64,000 nt of DNA, from the NCBI RefSeq assembly GCF_000423225.1, contig NZ_AUHO01000010.1, positions 1-64,000 on the forward strand, in the 5' to 3' direction. The notes under the pieces are model-generated. The model was not told the DNA's origin and did no database searches. It was given only the letters and a program-made list of their open reading frames with translations. This document shows, piece by piece, positions 14,118 to 54,757 of the stretch; position 1 is the first letter of the stretch, and every line of letters starts with the position of its first letter. The stretch comes from Kaistia adipata DSM 17808 (GTDB lineage Bacteria > Pseudomonadota > Alphaproteobacteria > Rhizobiales > Kaistiaceae). A program made the translations under genes and the position numbers.

Positions 14118-15467
14118 CTACGCCACTGGCGCCCCCAACAGATGCGGGCTCTTGAAATCGAGCCTCTGGAGGCCGCGCCGGATCTCGGGGTCGCGCATGA
14201 CGAGGTCCCAGACGAGGCCGCTGCGGTGGTTCTCGATCATCACGACCTGCGGGCCCTGGTCGATGGCGAGGTGGGTCTTCGCCGTCCAGTTCGCGCTGTC
14301 GCTGAAGGCGTCGAAGAAGCCGTATTCGCCGAACAGCTGGTCGCCGCGATCGTCGTGAAAGTGGCGGAGCACCGGCATGATCAGCTCCGGCGCATAGGGC
14401 AGGCTGGAAATGGCGGCCGTCGGCGCGATGACGCCGCGGTCGTTGTCCGGAGAATGGGCCGAATAGCCCTCGGGCCCGTCGCTCGCCGTCAGCCCCCAGC
14501 TCTTCGGACCGTAGCCCTCGAAGCCGCCGGGATTGGCGATGCAGTGCGCCCGGTTCAGCCGGGTATGGGCGACGTTCTGGGCCCAGTAGTCGGCATAGCG
14601 GTCGGCCAGGCCGCGCGGATCGAGCCCCAGGAACGAGTAGTGCGCGAAGAACAGGGGGCCGCCGCCATCGGGGCCGAGCGGCAGCAGGATGCCGCGCTGC
14701 GGGCGACGATTGTCGAAGGTCCGGCCCTGGGCGAAGCCGTTGTGGTAGGCGGCCGGGCGGATCGAATGTTCTTCGGCGCCCGCCGCCAGCACATAGGCGA
14801 TCAGGCACTCGTTCCAGCCGCGCAGCTCGAGGTTCATGGCGAAGCCGTTGTTGGGGCTCCAGTGCCAGGTCAGCACGTCGCGGCCGTCGCGGGTGAACCA
14901 GTCCCATTCGACCGCGCGCCGCATCTGTTCGATCCGGCCGCGCAGCCAGGGTTCCTTGCCGTCGGCGCGATCGAAGAAGTGCTGCGCCGCGATCAGGCCC
15001 TGGATCCAGAGCGCCGTCTCGACCAGGTCGGCGCCATCGTCCTTGCGGCTGAAGCGCACCGTCGCGCCGGTCGCGCCATGCATGAAATGCGGGAAGGCGC
15101 CGTGATAGCTCGGCGCCCGCTCCAGGAAGCCGATCATCCGGTGCAGCCGGTCGACCGCCTCGTCGCGCGCGATCCAGCCGCGCGCCACGCCGACGACGAT
15201 CGCCATGACGCCGAAGCCGGAGCCGCCGAGCGTGACGACGTCGTCATTGCCGAGGGTGCGGTCGCGGGCGAGGCCGCTCGTCGGATGGCCGAAATCCCAG
15301 AAATAGCGCAGCGTCCGGCGCTGGACGCGATCGAGCAGGTCCGCGTCGGAGAGGCGCGCGGCCGGCCGGGGGGCCTCGCCGGCGGCCTGCGTCGTCGCGC
15401 CCTTCTCGCGCGCGGACGCGCTAATTCGCCTCGGCGATGCCTGCCGCGTCGGTGTTCTGGTTGTCAT
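14118..15467 (-). CDS. Glucoamylase-like glycosidase (PF10091; GH144-like)
   Basis: A 449-residue soluble protein of the glucoamylase-like family. It shows the alpha/alpha-toroid pattern with RRTLRYFWDFGHPTSGLARD near residue 50, GFGVMAIVVGVARGW, a TWHWSPNNGF loop, and SWGLTASDGPEGY toward the C-terminus. Characterised GH144 relatives cleave beta-1,2-glucan, and a related domain sits in the cyclic beta-1,2-glucan synthase NdvB/ChvB, so a glucan role is plausible. No clear signal peptide is visible; the first 40 residues are basic and disordered. Its start overlaps the preceding ABC gene by 47 bases, implying coupled translation. Confidence 0.82.
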   Translation of the reverse strand: MTTRTPTRQASPRRISASAREKGATTQAAGEAPRPAARLSDADLLDRVQRRTLRYFWDFGHPTSGLARDRTLGNDDVVTLGGSGFGVMAIVVGVARGWIARDEAVDRLHRMIGFLERAPSYHGAFPHFMHGATGATVRFSRKDDGADLVETALWIQGLIAAQHFFDRADGKEPWLRGRIEQMRRAVEWDWFTRDGRDVLTWHWSPNNGFAMNLELRGWNECLIAYVLAAGAEEHSIRPAAYHNGFAQGRTFDNRRPQRGILLPLGPDGGGPLFFAHYSFLGLDPRGLADRYADYWAQNVAHTRLNRAHCIANPGGFEGYGPKSWGLTASDGPEGYSAHSPDNDRGVIAPTAAISSLPYAPELIMPVLRHFHDDRGDQLFGEYGFFDAFSDSANWTAKTHLAIDQGPQVVMIENHRSGLVWDLVMRDPEIRRGLQRLDFKSPHLLGAPVA

Positions 15468-17292
15468 CCGCTGCCGCTCGCTTGCTGTCCGCTGGTTCCG
15501 CGGCTTCCGTCCGGGCCGCCGCCGCTTCTGGTTCCGCGCCGGAATCGTCGAGGACGAGATTCACGGTGCGCGTATAGAAATCCGTCGCCGAGGCCCGGCT
15601 CGAGACCGTGACGAGCCCCGCCTTCGCCAGCTCGTCTCGCAGGATCGAGGTGAAGATGGCGCGCTGGTCCTCGTCCATTCCGTCGATGGTCTGCTCGGTG
15701 AAGATCCATTGCGGCTTCAGCAGCAGTAGCCGGGCGAGCGTCAGCCGCACCTCGTCGTCATAGGAGATCTCCTTGGCCCAGCGTGCGCGGCGATCGAGCG
15801 AGGCGCCGAGCCGCGGCAGGCCGACCCGCTTCAACGAGGCCGTCAGCTCGTCTTCGCTGAAGGCGGTGGACGCGAGCGGATAGGTGAGGGCGGCGCGCAG
15901 CGAGCCGTCGGGCACATAGGGCCGTTCCGGCATGAACATCACCTTGGCGCGCGGCGGCAGGCTGATCTTGCCGGCGCCCCAGGGCCAGAGGCCGGCGAGC
16001 GCCGAGAACAGCGCGCCATGGGCGGAATCGGTTCGGTCGACGATCAGCACGCGGTCGCCGGGCGAAACCTCGACGAGCGGCGCGTCGAGGCGGGCGCGCT
16101 CGCCCATCCACGTTACCGCGACGTTGTCGAGCTCGAGATGGCCGAGCGGCTCGAGGTCGTATTCGATCCGCTCGCCGCTGTCGCGCGGCTGCTCCAGCGT
16201 GGTCAGCGCCTCGCGGAAGCTCATGACGCGGGCCAAAGTGGCGCGCCAGTCGGCGATGGCGCTGAAATTATCGACGAACCAGCGCAGGCAGTTCTGCACC
16301 TGGTTGAAGGCGCCGACCACCATCATCAGCTCGCCGAAGGAGAGTTTGCCGCCGAAATAGCCGGGAGCCGCGATGACGATCGGCGCGACGATGCCGATCC
16401 AGCCATAGCCGGCCGTCACCCAGGTGAGGCGCGCCACCGCGTTGACGAAGCGGCGCATGACGTCGAGCACGCGGTCGAGCTCTTCGTTGAGGCGCTTCTT
16501 CTCGTCGGTCTCGCCGGCGTTCAGCACGATGCCGCTGGCGTTCTCGCTGACCTGGACGAGCGCGAAGCGGAGGTCGGCCTCGCGCGCATAGCGCTCGACG
16601 CCGAGGCCGATCAGCGGCCGGCCGACGCGCCAGCTGACCCAGGATCCGGTCATGGCGAAGACCAGCGCGCACCACACCATGTAGCCGGGGATGACGAAGC
16701 TGTAGCCGCCGAGCGTCAGCACCACGCCGCTCGACAGCACCCAGAGCACGCCGACGAAGCTGAACAGCAGCAAGGTCGACTGGAACAGGCCGATGCCGAG
16801 CCCGGTCGAGAGCTCGGCCAGATGCTTGGCGTCCTCGTGCACGCGCTGGTCGGGGTTGATGCCGATCTCGCCGGCATCGCCCAGCATGACCAGGCGGCGC
16901 GGCGCCAGCCATTGCTCGATCAGGTCGCGCGTCAGCCATTTGCGCGTCTGCTGCGTGATCATCTGGGCCAGCCAGGTCTGCGCTACGTTGAGCGCGAGCA
17001 GGATGCTGGCGATGCCGCCGAAGATCATCAGATAGTAGAGGAAGGACGAGACGTTCTTGGTCTCGATGGCGTTGTAGAACGGCTTGTTCCAGGCGTTCAG
17101 CACCACCTGCATGCCCGACGTCGCGATGATGACGCCGATGATCGAGACGGTCAGCAGGATGAAATTTCGGCGGCCGGACGAGTTCCACAACGCGGCGATG
17201 AAGGCGCTGAACTGCTGCACGAGCGCTGCGAAGGATTCTCTCGTGCCGAACTCGATTTCCGATTCGGCCGCGTCATCGGGTCTTTCCGTCAT
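15421..17292 (-). CDS. BacA/YddA-type ABC protein with degenerate ATPase domain
   Basis: A 623-residue fusion of a membrane domain of the ABC_membrane_2/SbmA-BacA family (about residues 40-370, with segments such as [15 protein letters not shown]) and a C-terminal ATPase-like domain (about 385-585). The fold of the second domain is recognisable ([35 protein letters not shown]). However, Walker A reads [10 protein letters not shown], the LSGGE signature reads ISYDDE, and Walker B reads WIFTEQT. It therefore looks unable to hydrolyse ATP. A low-complexity acidic tail follows. It overlaps the glycosidase gene downstream. Confidence 0.85.
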
Positions 17293-17582
17293 CGCCTCGA
17301 TTATCCGGCTTCGACGACGACAAGCATATCAACCGGCCGGTCAAAGTTCCGCATCATTCCATCCGCATCCGTCTCGCGCATCCTTTCCCGATCCAACTGT
17401 TGCAGATCGACATCAAGTCAAGGCGGCGGCTCCCTCGCGCTCGGAGCGGCGAATCGTTAGCATCGTTTCGAAAACGGGTTCCGGACGTGTTCTTGCGATG
17501 GCCCGCTGGCGCGTCACCTGGGTGGCGGCAAGCGGCGGGTCGCGCGCTCAGATCGGCCCGCAGGCAGTTCGGGGAGGACCCA

Positions 17583-19070
17583 ATGAGCAGTTTCATCCTG
17601 GCGATCGACCAGGGCACGACGTCGACGCGCGCGATCGTCTTCGACGGCCACTACCAGGTCTGCGGCGTCGGCCAGCAGGAGTTCCCGCAGCATTTTCCCC
17701 GTTCCGGCTGGGTCGAGCACGACCCGGAGGACATCTGGCGCACGGTGCAGGAGACGATCCGCTTCGCGCTCGCCAACGCCAATCTGGCGCTGACCGACAT
17801 CGCCGCGATCGGCATCACCAACCAGCGCGAGACGACGATCGTCTGGGACCGCGCGACGGGCCGGGCGATCCACAACGCCATCGTCTGGCAGGATCGCCGC
17901 ACGGCGGATCTCTGTGCCGAGCTGAAGGCGGCCGGCGCCGAACCGGGGCTGACCGAGAAGACGGGCCTGCTGCTCGATCCCTACTTCTCCGGCACCAAGA
18001 TCGCCTGGATCCTCGACCATGTCGAAGACGCGCGGGCGCGGGCGGAGCGGGGCGAGCTGGCTTTCGGTACGGTCGACAGCTTCCTGCTCTGGCGGCTGAC
18101 GGGCGGGCGCGTGCATGCGACCGACGCCACCAACGCCGCGCGCACGCTGCTCTTCAACATCCGCACCGGCGAATGGGATCGCGACCTGCTCGAACTGCTT
18201 CGCGTGCCGGAGGCGGTCTTGCCCGAGGTCCGCGATTCCGCCGCCGATTTCGGAGTCACGGACGAATCCGTGGTTGGCGCGGCGATCCGCATCGCCGGCA
18301 TCGCCGGCGACCAGCATGCCGCGGCGCTCGGCCAGGCCTGCTTCAAGCCGGGCATGCTGAAATCGACCTATGGCACCGGCTGTTTCGCCCTGCTCAACAC
18401 CGGCGCGGACTTCGTGCCGTCGCAGAACCGGCTGCTGACGACGATCGCCTACCGGCTCGACGGCAAGACGACCTATGCGCTCGAGGGCTCGATCTTCGTC
18501 GCCGGCGCGGCGATCCAGTGGCTGCGCGATGGGCTGCGCCTGCTCGATCGGGCCGACCAGTCCGGGCCGATGGCCGAGGCGGCGGATCCGCATCAGGAGG
18601 TCTATCTGGTTCCCGCCTTCACCGGGCTCGGCGCGCCGTGGTGGGACGCGGAGGCGCGCGGCGCCCTGTTCGGCCTGACCCGCGCCACCGGCCCGAACGA
18701 GTTCGTGCGCGCGGCGCTCGAATCGGTCTGCTTCCAGACGCGCGACCTGCTCGACGCGATGCGGCGCGACTGGGCGCAGGCTGGCGAGACGGTGCTCCGG
18801 GTCGATGGCGGCATGGTGGCGAGCGACTGGACCATGCAGCGCCTGGCCGACATTCTCGACGCGCCGGTCGACCGGCCGGTGGTGCTGGAGACGACGGCGC
18901 TGGGCGCGGCGTGGCTGGCTGGCCGGCAGGCCGGCGTCTGGCCGGCCGAGGACGGTTTCGCGGCGAGCTGGCGGCTCAATCGCAAGTTCCTGCCCGCCAT
19001 GACCGCGGCGACGCGCGAGGCCAAGCTCGCCGGCTGGCGCGACGCGGTGCGGCGGACGCTGACGCACTAG
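17583..19070 (+). CDS. glpK: Glycerol kinase
   Basis: A 495-residue FGGY kinase that phosphorylates glycerol to glycerol 3-phosphate. The N-terminal phosphate-binding motif [13 protein letters not shown] and the segment GITNQRETT are diagnostic, with ATP-site glycines TYGTGCF in the second half. GGGGAGG about six bases upstream fixes the ATG at 17583; upstream in-frame sequence is low quality. It stands alone, with no glpF or glpD adjacent. The 290-base gap upstream presumably carries promoters for glpK and for the divergent ABC gene. Confidence 0.96.
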
Positions 19071-19455: not shown

Positions 19456-19494
19456 AAAGAAAAAGGCCCGTCGGGGAGGAGGTCGACGGGCCTT
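19456..19494 (-). ncRNA. Cuckoo/CcsR-type sRNA hairpin 3 and terminator
   Basis: AAGGCCCGTCG (19463-19473) and its perfect complement (19484-19494) form an 11-base-pair stem. On the minus strand the 10-base loop is ACCTCCTCCC, an anti-Shine-Dalgarno sequence. The stem is followed on that strand by a T-rich tract, so this hairpin also acts as the rho-independent terminator of the DUF1127 transcript. The loop is identical to those of the two preceding hairpins although the stem differs. Confidence 0.85.
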
Positions 19495-19503
19495 CTAGTT
19501 GAT

Positions 19504-19536
19504 GGCACCGCGCGAGGGAGGAGGTTCGCGGGTGCC
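19504..19536 (-). ncRNA. Cuckoo/CcsR-type sRNA hairpin 2
   Basis: GGCACC-G-CGCGA pairs with TCGCGGGTGCC (one bulged base) around the loop ACCTCCTCCC on the minus strand. It is the middle of three tandem hairpins with the same loop and unrelated stems, downstream of the DUF1127 gene. This matches the published cuckoo RNA (CcsR) pattern in alphaproteobacteria. Confidence 0.85.
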
Positions 19537-19544
19537 TAATCGCA

Positions 19545-19570
19545 GGGAACGAGGGAGGAGGTTCGTTCCC
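19545..19570 (-). ncRNA. Cuckoo/CcsR-type sRNA hairpin 1
   Basis: GGGAACGA (19545-19552) and TCGTTCCC (19563-19570) form a perfect stem whose minus-strand loop is ACCTCCTCCC. It begins 18 bases after the DUF1127 stop. Part of its stem can alternatively join a hairpin between 19561-19567 and 19572-19578, so two structures compete. Confidence 0.85.
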
Positions 19571-19588
19571 CAACGAACTCGGAATTTC

Positions 19589-19738
19589 TCAGTATCCAGC
19601 GGCCTGCTTGGCGATCGCCTTGATGTCGGCGCGGTTGATGCCCAGATCGCGGAGCTCACGGTTGTCGAGGCGCGACAATTCGCTGCGGGTCTCGCGATAC
19701 TTCATCCAGGTCTTGTAGGAGGCAACGAGGCTGACCAT
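19589..19738 (-). CDS. DUF1127 small protein (CcaF1-like)
   Basis: A 49-residue arginine-rich protein. The DUF1127 signature is clear: SELSRLDNRELRDLGINR, followed by ADIKAIAKQAAGY. AAGGAA lies seven bases before the ATG. Short DUF1127 proteins in alphaproteobacteria bind RNA or affect RNA turnover; in Rhodobacter one (CcaF1) is co-transcribed with the CcsR sRNAs. The same order is seen here, with three anti-Shine-Dalgarno hairpins directly downstream. Expression under stress sigma factors is known for relatives; I could not identify the promoter here. Confidence 0.93.
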   Translation of the reverse strand: MVSLVASYKTWMKYRETRSELSRLDNRELRDLGINRADIKAIAKQAAGY

Positions 19739-19916
19739 CGTCTGTTCCTTTCCACGCCGGTCATCGGACTTATCAGCGGCGCCGGATTTCTCTGTCGCCG
19801 TTCTGATGAGCTGAATTTAGTCGGCGTCCGCAGGAATGAGCAGTGCGAAAAAACTCATGCCTGCCCTGCGCTGGATGCAGAGCAGCATTCGACCCTAACG
19901 TCATGGTGCGATGCAC

Positions 19917-19943
19917 AAAAACGAGCTGACGTTCACGTCAGCT
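19917..19943 (-). terminator. Terminator overlapping the yoaK-like stop codon
   Basis: AGCTGACG and CGTCAGCT form an eight-base-pair stem (19924-19931 with 19936-19943) around a four-base loop. On the minus strand it is followed by CG and five T residues. The stop codon of the upstream DUF1275 gene lies inside the stem, and the terminator insulates that gene from DUF1127. Confidence 0.82.
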
Positions 19944-52292: not shown

Positions 52293-54191
52293 TCAGGCCG
52301 CTCCGGAAAGCGTCTTTTCCATCAGGCTCGCCAGCGCCTTGGCGAAGGCGGCCGGATCGTCCGGCGCCTCGCCGTCGAGGATGCGCGCCAGGCCGAAGAT
52401 CAGCGGCGCCGCCGCATCGACGCTCGCCGCCGCCGCGCCGCCTTCGGCCGCCTGCGCCGCCAGGCCGGCGATCAGCGGATGCGACGGGTTCAGCTCGAGG
52501 ATCGCCGCCATGCGGCCGCCGGCGCCGTCACGGCTCGCCAGGATCTTTTCCAATTGGCGGTCGGGACCGAATTCCGGCGCCACCAGGCAGGCCGGGCTGG
52601 TCGCCAGCCGGGTCGAGCCGCGCACCTCCGCCACCTTGTCGCCGAGCGCCTGCTTGAGGCGGGCGGCGAGCGCGGCGAGCGCCGCGTCGGAGGTCTTCTC
52701 GTCGGTCGCCGAGGCGTCGTCGAGGGCGGGGATCGCGTCGAGCTGGGCTGCGCCCTGCGTGACCGATTCGAACGGCTTGCCGTCGAAGCCGAGCGCCGTG
52801 CGGACCCAGAAGGCGTCGACCGGATCGGCGAGCATCAGCACCTCGATGCCGCGCTTGGCGAAGCCTTCGAGATGCGGACTGGCGGCGATCGTCGCGGCAT
52901 CGTCGCCGAGCGCGTAGTAGATCGCTGTCTGGTTCGGGCGGAAGCCGGCGACGATGTCGGCCAGGCTGCGCCAGGCGTCGCCGCCCGTCGTCGTCTTGAA
53001 GCGGGCGAGCTTGAACAGCGCGTCGCGGCGGTCGGGCGCCTCGTAGAGGCCTTCCTTCAGCACGGCGCCGAAGGCCTCCCAGACCTTCGCGAAGCGCTCG
53101 GGATCGTCTGTGGCGAGCTTGTCGAGATCCGTCAGCACGCGGTTGGTGACGCCCTTGCCGATCGCCTCGATGACCGGGTTCTTCTGCAGCATCTCGCGCG
53201 ACAGGTTGAGCGGCAGGTCCTCGGAATCGATCACGCCGCGCACGAAGCGCAGCCAGGGCGGCAGGATCTCCGCCTCGTCGGTGATGAAGACGCGGCGGAC
53301 ATAGAGCTTGACCTTGCCGCGCCGCTCCGGCTCGAACAGGTCGAACGGCCGCGACGAGGGCACGTAGAGCAGCACGGAATATTCGGTGCGGCCCTCGGCG
53401 CGATAGTGGATGGTCACGGCCGGGTCGTCGAAGCGGCCGCCGACATGGCCGTAGAACTCCTTGTATTCCTCTTCCGTCACGGCCGATTTCGGCTTGCGCC
53501 AGAGCGCGCTGCCATCGGCGAGCTGCTCCTCCTCGCCGTCGGCAAGCTTCAGCACGATCGGCACGGGCACATGCGCCGAATAGGCGGTGACGATGCGCTC
53601 GATCGTCTCCGTCTCGGCATAGGCGGCGCTCTCCGCGTTGAGATGCAGCACGATGCGGGTGCCGCGCGCCGGCGCGTCGGCGAGGTCGACCGGCTCGACC
53701 TCGTAGGCGCCCTTGCCGTCGGAATGCCAGCGCCAGGCCTCGTCGGTGCCGGCCTTGCGCGAGGTCACGGTGACGCTGTCAGCGACCATGAAGGCGGAGT
53801 AGAAGCCGACGCCGAACTGACCGATCAGCGCCGAACCCTTGGCGCCTTCGCCGGCCTGCTTGAGGAAGGCCCGCGTGCCCGACTGGGCGATGGTGCCGAG
53901 ATTGTCGATCAGTTCCTGCCGGCTCATGCCGATGCCGTTGTCGGCGATGGCGAGGCCCGGCGCGGCCTTGTCGGCCTCGATCTCGATTTTGAAGGCTTCG
54001 TCGCCCGCGGCTAGCGCCGGCTCGGCCAGCGCCAGCGTGCGCAGCTTCTCGCAGGCGTCGGCGGCGTTGGAGACGAGCTCGCGCAGGAAGACGTCGCGGT
54101 TGGAATAGACGGAATGCACCATCATGTGCAGCAGGCGCGAGACCTCGGCTTCGAACGAGCGGGTCTCCGCGGCGGGCTTTGGATCGGACAC
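52293..54191 (-). CDS. htpG: Molecular chaperone HtpG (Hsp90)
   Basis: A 632-residue cytosolic Hsp90. The GHKL ATPase domain shows ELVSNAADACEKLR, IADNGIGMSRQELIDNLG and GQFGVGFYSAFMVAD; middle and C-terminal dimerisation domains follow. The GTG start at 54191 has GGAGGAAAAGC directly upstream. Upstream in-frame sequence is low-complexity and is rejected. It lacks the charged linker of eukaryotic Hsp90, as expected. Confidence 0.97.
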   Translation of the reverse strand: MSDPKPAAETRSFEAEVSRLLHMMVHSVYSNRDVFLRELVSNAADACEKLRTLALAEPALAAGDEAFKIEIEADKAAPGLAIADNGIGMSRQELIDNLGTIAQSGTRAFLKQAGEGAKGSALIGQFGVGFYSAFMVADSVTVTSRKAGTDEAWRWHSDGKGAYEVEPVDLADAPARGTRIVLHLNAESAAYAETETIERIVTAYSAHVPVPIVLKLADGEEEQLADGSALWRKPKSAVTEEEYKEFYGHVGGRFDDPAVTIHYRAEGRTEYSVLLYVPSSRPFDLFEPERRGKVKLYVRRVFITDEAEILPPWLRFVRGVIDSEDLPLNLSREMLQKNPVIEAIGKGVTNRVLTDLDKLATDDPERFAKVWEAFGAVLKEGLYEAPDRRDALFKLARFKTTTGGDAWRSLADIVAGFRPNQTAIYYALGDDAATIAASPHLEGFAKRGIEVLMLADPVDAFWVRTALGFDGKPFESVTQGAAQLDAIPALDDASATDEKTSDAALAALAARLKQALGDKVAEVRGSTRLATSPACLVAPEFGPDRQLEKILASRDGAGGRMAAILELNPSHPLIAGLAAQAAEGGAAAASVDAAAPLIFGLARILDGEAPDDPAAFAKALASLMEKTLSGAA

Positions 54192-54757
54192 GCTTTTCCT
54201 CCGGCGTCGGACCGTCCCGGGCGGCGGATCGCCGTCGCGGGGGCGGTTGGTGGGCGGGCGCCCCGCGCAGGGGGCGGCGCTGATATCGCCGGTCGGCGTC
54301 GCAGTTTCAAGACGATCGCGGTCGTCGAAGCGTTTTCGGGCGAATTGGAGGCCGGTTCGGGCGCAGGCGCGCGCTCCGCCACGCGGGCCGCGTGGCGAAA
54401 GAAAATGGCCGGGCGGGACCGGCCAGAGGGCAATTTTGGGAGGGGAATGCGCTTCGGAAGCCTTGGTTCGAAGGTGGTCCGACCCAACCGAGGACCCCGG
54501 GGGGCTGGGGGGCTGAGAAATTCCGAAGCCTTGATCAGGCCGGACCGTTCGAAGCGATGGTGATGTTTTGCCAGTCCAATGCGGCCGGTGCCGGGCCGAA
54601 AAAGGGCGGAATAGTGAATTTTTCGAAAGGTCCTTCACGCCTTCGTGAGCTGCCGCAGCGGAATGGCCGGCCGCCGGCGGGGCCGGCTTGCCACGCCCGG
54701 TCATCGGAGCGATCATGACGGTTTGACGACGGTGCAAACTGGCAACGGGAGGCGCCT
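54192..54757. other. Intergenic gap between htpG and the DUF2794 gene
   Basis: A 566-base gap between divergent genes. It has G- and C-rich runs (for example CCCCGGGGGGCTGGGGGGC near 54500) and an AT-richer patch around 54610-54630 that could hold a promoter. I see no gene, RNA or clear repeat. Confidence 0.45.

Follow-up and report, generated by a model that had tools for sequence, protein, structure and literature searches.

A DUF1127 gene followed by an ar14/cuckoo RNA in Kaistia adipata, and a conserved upstream element suggesting LsrB as candidate activator

The RNA locus directly behind a 49-aa DUF1127 gene in the window (the whole 64,000-nucleotide stretch of Kaistia adipata DNA analysed here) is a real, selected and ordinary member of a known RNA family, ar14/cuckoo. 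We consider it probable that LsrB/VtlR activates a single transcript that would yield both the DUF1127 protein and the ar14/cuckoo RNA, with the loops of the RNA blocking ribosome-binding sites (RBSs). The features of the locus are as follows.

19458..19581, minus strand: ar14/cuckoo small RNA (Rfam RF02344 match)
19462..19495, minus strand: hairpin 3, loop 19474-19483, T-rich tail to 19456 (RNAfold and loop search)
19504..19536, minus strand: hairpin 2 with a bulged C, loop 19516-19525 (RNAfold and loop-sequence search; compensated in relatives)
19540..19576, minus strand: hairpin 1, loop 19553-19562 (RNAfold and loop-sequence search)
19589..19738, minus strand: DUF1127 gene, 49 aa (ORF list and Pfam match)
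19815..19820, minus strand: predicted -10 element CTAAAT (fixed offset across loci)
19856..19884, minus strand: 29-base LsrB/VtlR-like promoter element TGCNNTGCRTNNNNNGCANNNCWGSCATG (0 mismatches here)
19867-19879, minus strand: predicted T-N11-A box TGCATCCAGCGCA within the 29-base element
19924..19943, minus strand: terminator-like hairpin where the upstream DUF1275 gene ends (consensus match; 1 found vs 0.6 expected in shuffles)

Three hairpins of the ar14 family behind DUF1127

The DUF1127 ORF runs on the minus strand from 19738 to 19589 and matches Pfam PF06568 (56.4 bits, E = 2.4e-15); its product is 98% identical to a protein from Kaistia granuli DSM 23481. Seven nucleotides separate its stop codon from a same-strand match to Rfam ar14, the family of NfeR1 and the cuckoo RNAs, so that DUF1127 lies directly upstream as in CcsR/CIN1 loci. 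The match is full-length (model positions 1-123 of 123) and scores 76.7 bits (E = 4.5e-12, cut-off 58.8). The initial annotation had read the locus as a 49-residue DUF1127 gene followed by three minus-strand hairpins with an identical 10-base loop, a cuckoo (CcsR) RNA that ORF-only annotation would miss. The ORF list and RNAfold agree on the gene and the hairpins, the loop ACCTCCTCCC is common to all three hairpins at the window locus, and the covariance-model scan that had been proposed as a check returns a cuckoo-type RNA directly behind DUF1127. The CcsR assignment needs refining to ar14, the NfeR1 type with three hairpins, and the RNA, while invisible to ORF-only annotation, is found by Rfam-based annotation, ar14 being already modelled. 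In each of the three hairpins CCUCCUCCC, by which ar14 membership is judged, is unpaired. The loop contains ACCTCCT, which we take to be the 16S anti-Shine-Dalgarno (anti-SD) core.

The three-hairpin region is unusually stable (z-score = -6.29; as stable in 0 of 200 shuffles). RNAfold gives 13 pairs with a one-base bulge for hairpin 1, nine of them unbroken beside the loop, 11 pairs with a one-base bulge for hairpin 2, and 12 pairs for hairpin 3 counting A/U pairs with the tail (9 otherwise); of the stem lengths first given (11, 11 with a bulge, and 8), only that of hairpin 2 is recovered. The stems had also been called unrelated in sequence, and they are variable, but those of hairpins 1 and 2 share CGA/TCG beside the loop. 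The window contains the nine-base CCTCCTCCC exactly three times, on the minus strand at 19553-19561, 19516-19524 and 19474-19482, all at the ar14 locus. With 0.90 copies expected in the window, and because 8 of 100 shuffles contain at least three copies anywhere in it, this count by itself is weak evidence; the non-chance feature is that the copies are clustered in ~90 nt, each nearly filling a 10-nt hairpin loop.

A T-rich tail follows directly 3' of hairpin 3, as in the Rfam ar14 model, and hairpin 3 with this tail to 19456 would form a terminator. The tail fits the terminator role first assigned to hairpin 3, but the hairpin is absent from the output of a simple terminator scan, probably because that scan takes only loops of 3-8 nt. 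On the other side of the unit, the terminator-like hairpin at 19924-19943 probably separates the DUF1275 gene from DUF1127-ar14. Elsewhere in the window, an SbmA/BacA-like ABC transporter gene (15421-17292, minus strand) adjoins an FGGY-family sugar kinase gene (17580-19070, plus strand), and a weak Rfam BjrC174 match (54445-54638, minus strand; 48.0 bits, cut-off 45), with the 3' end of the model mostly unmatched, sits within the upstream end of a long frame (52293-54737) that is HtpG-like by eye.

Selection on the fold, spread of the RNA, and a locus without the protein gene

Stem covariation, for which an alignment of sister genomes had been proposed, was assessed in 43 Kaistia loci drawn from 46 ar14 matches in 14 genomes (2-5 matches each); left aside were L050 (36.3 bits) and L074 (31.9 bits), both lacking DUF1127, and a further match of 34.1 bits at the edge of a contig (G007 C106). 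The consensus fold has 30 pairs, and 17 of these show changes on both sides. Paired cells make up 97.4% in the alignment vs 90.4% in shuffles, and neither the covariation score nor the count of double-changed pairs was reached by any of 500 shuffles, which bears out the expected covariation and rules out a chance origin of the loops. No slid version of the structure reaches the observed covariation, a comparison in which the structure, being derived from the same alignment, is favoured over the slid ones. One covariation measure, the number of further pair types, did not exceed that of shuffles (176 of 500). Compared by eye, hairpin 2 of the window and that of L054 (G003) differ at four pairs, all of them compensated, with the loop and the bulged C unchanged.

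The exact loop ACCTCCTCCC is found in 31 (hairpin 1), 41 (hairpin 2) and 32 (hairpin 3) of the 43 loci, and the commonest variant is ATCTCCTCCC (14 in total). The loops are thus conserved but not frozen. The earlier argument from stem divergence and loop identity stands as to a conserved loop on covarying stems, but the identity is not absolute, with all three loops exact in 23 of the 43. One ar14 copy of this genome, L002 (C1:1538949-1539071, minus strand), has diverged loops 1 and 3 and an exact loop 2; L053, L056, L065, L077, L079 and L083 from other Kaistia resemble it and likewise have a longer C-rich loop 1. These loci are perhaps a paralogue with another role.

The genome (4.84 Mb, 12 contigs) holds three ar14 and five DUF1127 matches. 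Its three ar14 loci lie 7, 16 and 8 nt downstream of a DUF1127 gene; no ar14 match accompanies the other two DUF1127 genes, nor were such loops seen by eye in the sequence around them. In an even draw from the host's order (Infernal with stricter filters), 78 of 249 genomes match ar14 at E = 0.001 and 42 above cut-off. Of the non-Kaistia loci retrieved from part of the above-cut-off places, 61 form a chosen subset, with L135, L137, L139, L141 and L152 removed for overlapping other rows; for L175, L178 and L196 the anchor is the first, weaker copy in a tandem cluster. Many rows represent related species or one cluster, so that the loci are independent in neither the set of 43 nor that of 61. 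Tandem clusters of 2-4 DUF1127 frames and ar14 RNAs within 1-3 kb are seen at L102, L161, L163 and L172 in other families.

At L085 (G013 C3:137352-139073), one case in the 43, the promoter and the three hairpins are kept without an adjacent DUF1127 gene. This locus is colinear with L062 (G006), with 92% identity over 376 bp upstream, 86% over 114 bp of promoter and 72-80% in the RNA and downstream. Since 9 bases replace the 211 that hold the DUF1127 frame in L062, the -10 of L085 lies directly before the hairpins; the upstream intergenic stretches of the two loci also differ by ~100 bases. L085 bears on whether the hairpins merely end and stabilise the DUF1127 mRNA, as might be supposed from the terminator-like hairpin 3 and tail and from the DUF1127 gene directly preceding the RNA at the other 42 Kaistia loci. 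We regard this as very improbable: a single hairpin suffices for a terminator, with no need of a fixed 10-nt loop; the loop persists as the stems change; L085 retains promoter and hairpins without the gene; and at 15 of the 61 non-Kaistia loci no DUF1127 gene ends within the 300 nt upstream.

The upstream element and LsrB as candidate activator

The 29-base element TGCNNTGCRTNNNNNGCANNNCWGSCATG, read off the same Kaistia loci, themselves related by descent, is present with at most two mismatches upstream of all 43 (vs 0 of 860 dinucleotide shuffles). Exact copies occur at three places in the genome, all DUF1127-ar14 promoters (reversed control: 0). Two further places match with two mismatches, and these we take, from their appearance, to be a conserved coding motif of iron-sulphur subunits. 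Among the 61 chosen non-Kaistia loci the element is found at up to three mismatches in 32 (vs 0 of 1220 shuffles), 27 of them preceding DUF1127-linked RNAs and five preceding unlinked ones, at -70, -106, -109, -109 and -229. It is absent at that threshold from 29 of the 61, e.g., 13 of 15 in f23 and 4 of 6 in f11. Six above-cut-off G049 loci, omitted as being of the same genus as G208, have best element matches of 4-7 mismatches, and their inclusion would make it 32 of 67; at L153 and L155, where DUF1127 ends ~250 nt upstream, the promoter may lie outside the 420 nt searched.

A TA-containing -10-like site lies 64 bases from the element start in all 43 Kaistia loci. If the start is placed 12 bases downstream of the first -10 base, transcription would begin near 19808, and the T-N11-A box would lie at about -71 to -59 (centre ~-65), from where LsrB/VtlR would probably activate transcription. 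No good -35 was found at the DUF1127-ar14 promoter. A scan with CTTGAC-N17-CTATAT, related to the NfeR1 CTTAGAC-N17-CTATAT, gave at best 4 mismatches of 12 (as good in 288 of 500 shuffles), and no good match to an ordinary sigma-70 promoter was found. Nor is an RpoH1 promoter supported by the S. meliloti consensus, whose closest fit within 19739-19937 is mismatched at 6 of 13 positions (equalled in 500 of 500 shuffles). The heat or singlet-oxygen setting first envisaged for the locus is not supported by this RpoH1 consensus, while the LsrB/VtlR-like element stands at all 43 Kaistia loci.

These results weigh on a CcsR-type reading as in Rhodobacter, by which an RpoH-driven DUF1127-cuckoo operon would be induced by heat and by singlet oxygen and the DUF1127 protein would aid RNase E in maturing the RNA. 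The gene order is alike, with DUF1127, then anti-SD hairpins, and the terminator last, but we judge this reading unlikely given the lack of an RpoH1-like promoter by the S. meliloti consensus, the LsrB-like element at every Kaistia locus, and a three-hairpin architecture that is the one described for NfeR1. L085, which keeps the RNA without an adjacent protein gene, also speaks against it, although the protein could be supplied in trans by three other DUF1127-linked loci retrieved from the genome that holds L085.

We return to LsrB, a known regulator that senses redox state. In S. meliloti, LsrB binds the NfeR1 promoter, with a proposed motif TGCA-N6-GCAT, itself a T-N11-A box, at -72 to -60 (PMC10746234, accessible text), and the LsrB/VtlR consensus is given as GCAT-N3-TG-N3-T in the accessible text of PMC7486931 and PMC8844928. 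The second half of the 29-base element resembles the reverse complement of this consensus, and also the Brucella motif as quoted in the accessible part of PMC12595884. The window box has one mismatch to each published string. Exact TGCA-N6-GCAT occurs in 8 of 43 Kaistia loci (vs 15 of 860 shuffles) and exact GCAT-N3-TG-N3-T in 15 of 43 (vs 39 of 860); with up to one mismatch the counts are 41 of 43 (vs 228 of 860) and 35 of 43 (vs 514 of 860), respectively. At one mismatch the published strings are common by chance, so that what speaks for LsrB is the element in its entirety, the way it is spaced and what has been published; the 29-base element is stronger evidence than the published box string.

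A LysR-type gene (L125 3495-4385) starts 36 bases behind trxB in this genome, and trxB followed by lsrB is the gene order reported for Rhizobiales. Its product matches PDB 9HH1, an Agrobacterium LsrB entry, with E = 4e-127 over all 296 aa (next PDB match: 3e-29); no NCBIfam family was above its own cut-off among the best 25 of 56. Judged by sequence, the gene behind trxB is an lsrB orthologue. Together with the conserved upstream element, it suggests LsrB as the proposed activator of the DUF1127-ar14 unit, a modest regulatory lead.

Candidate targets, related systems and meaning

By our preferred reading, one transcript would encode the 49-aa protein and terminate in the ar14/cuckoo RNA, which would probably be freed by cleavage between the DUF1127 stop codon and hairpin 1 (3' UTR processing), possibly by RNase E as described for CcsR in the accessible text of PMC8625941. 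The three loops, each resembling the ribosome anti-SD, would then pair with purine-rich RBSs of other mRNAs and block their translation. They may act as redundant seeds by analogy with NfeR1 of S. meliloti, three loops of which serve as redundant seeds in silencing target mRNAs (PMC10746234, accessible text).

The perfect 9-base complement GGGAGGAGG followed by N3-10-ATG has four matches at three places in the genome (vs two for the control), and none opens a convincing gene. With perfect-match sites few and without a convincing gene, targets, if any, would pair over fewer bases. In S. meliloti, NfeR1 targets ntrB; in this genome the start region of ntrB (upstream of ntrC and, by eye, behind a dusB-like frame) could form a 6-bp GAGGAG pairing at -10.5 kcal/mol. 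Pairing of this strength is reached by 67 of 1000 random 38-mers from the window and 27 of 1000 random 25-mers, so that it is compatible with targeting, unexceptional, and no proof of it. Five of 95 window ORF starts, listed mechanically and not as curated genes, pair at -12.5 kcal/mol or stronger.

That no perfect-match targets stand out, and that the loop contains ACCTCCT, the 16S anti-SD core, would also suit loops that compete generally for strong SD sites against the free tail of 16S rRNA, lowering translation broadly with no choice of target. We doubt this, and hold it improbable, since the loop exceeds the ACCTCCT core and is conserved beyond it (hairpin 2 exact in 41 of 43) and NfeR1 acts on named mRNAs. 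The reading with selected mRNAs as targets remains the one we prefer.

The locus is closest to ar14/NfeR1 of Sinorhizobium meliloti (Rfam RF02344), a short, Hfq-independent RNA, in its three anti-SD-loop hairpins, variable stems and length of ~123 nt, and the T-N11-A box is at a similar distance from the start (-71 to -59 as placed here, -72 to -60 as published). It differs in that the RNA lies directly behind DUF1127, whereas NfeR1 has its own promoter in the accessible descriptions. It shares with the CcaF1-CcsR1-4 locus of Rhodobacter sphaeroides the order of DUF1127, anti-SD RNA and terminator; there, however, four RNAs, which depend on RNase E and CcaF1 for maturation, accompany a 71-aa protein under an RpoHI/RpoHII promoter, and here a single three-hairpin RNA accompanies a 49-aa protein without an RpoH1-like promoter (S. 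meliloti consensus). The predicted LsrB-type promoter before DUF1127 recalls the VtlR/LsrB-activated DUF1127 genes of Brucella and Agrobacterium, but the accessible text of those reports describes no cuckoo RNA behind them. AbcR1 and AbcR2 are likewise anti-SD sRNAs, and AbcR1 is linked to LsrB; unlike ar14, they bind Hfq, and their anti-SD motifs are similar, not identical. In Rfam they are modelled apart from ar14.

No paper naming NfeR1 and DUF1127 together was found in a search outside which most subscription journals fall, and an LsrB-driven DUF1127-cuckoo transcript may already have been published there; the accessible text of two papers that name a cuckoo RNA and LsrB (PMC10746234 and the review PMC7143759) has no mention of DUF1127. 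It is possible, and we offer it tentatively, that DUF1127-ar14 under an LsrB/VtlR promoter is an older two-output unit of the Hyphomicrobiales redox regulon, in which an activator would drive a small protein and an anti-SD RNA. On this view, free NfeR1-type RNAs would be one separated half of it and VtlR-driven DUF1127 genes without an RNA the other, and L085 would be such a separation in the act.

The results settle that the Kaistia locus is a genuine ar14 RNA, and suggest a link between two separately reported findings, the activation of NfeR1 by LsrB and that of DUF1127 genes by LsrB/VtlR, in that a single conserved promoter in Kaistia appears to stand before both outputs, carried by one transcript. 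Should this hold, studies of lsrB or vtlR phenotypes would need separate readouts for the protein and for the 3' UTR RNA, and the relative that lacks the ORF (L085) would offer a natural comparison.
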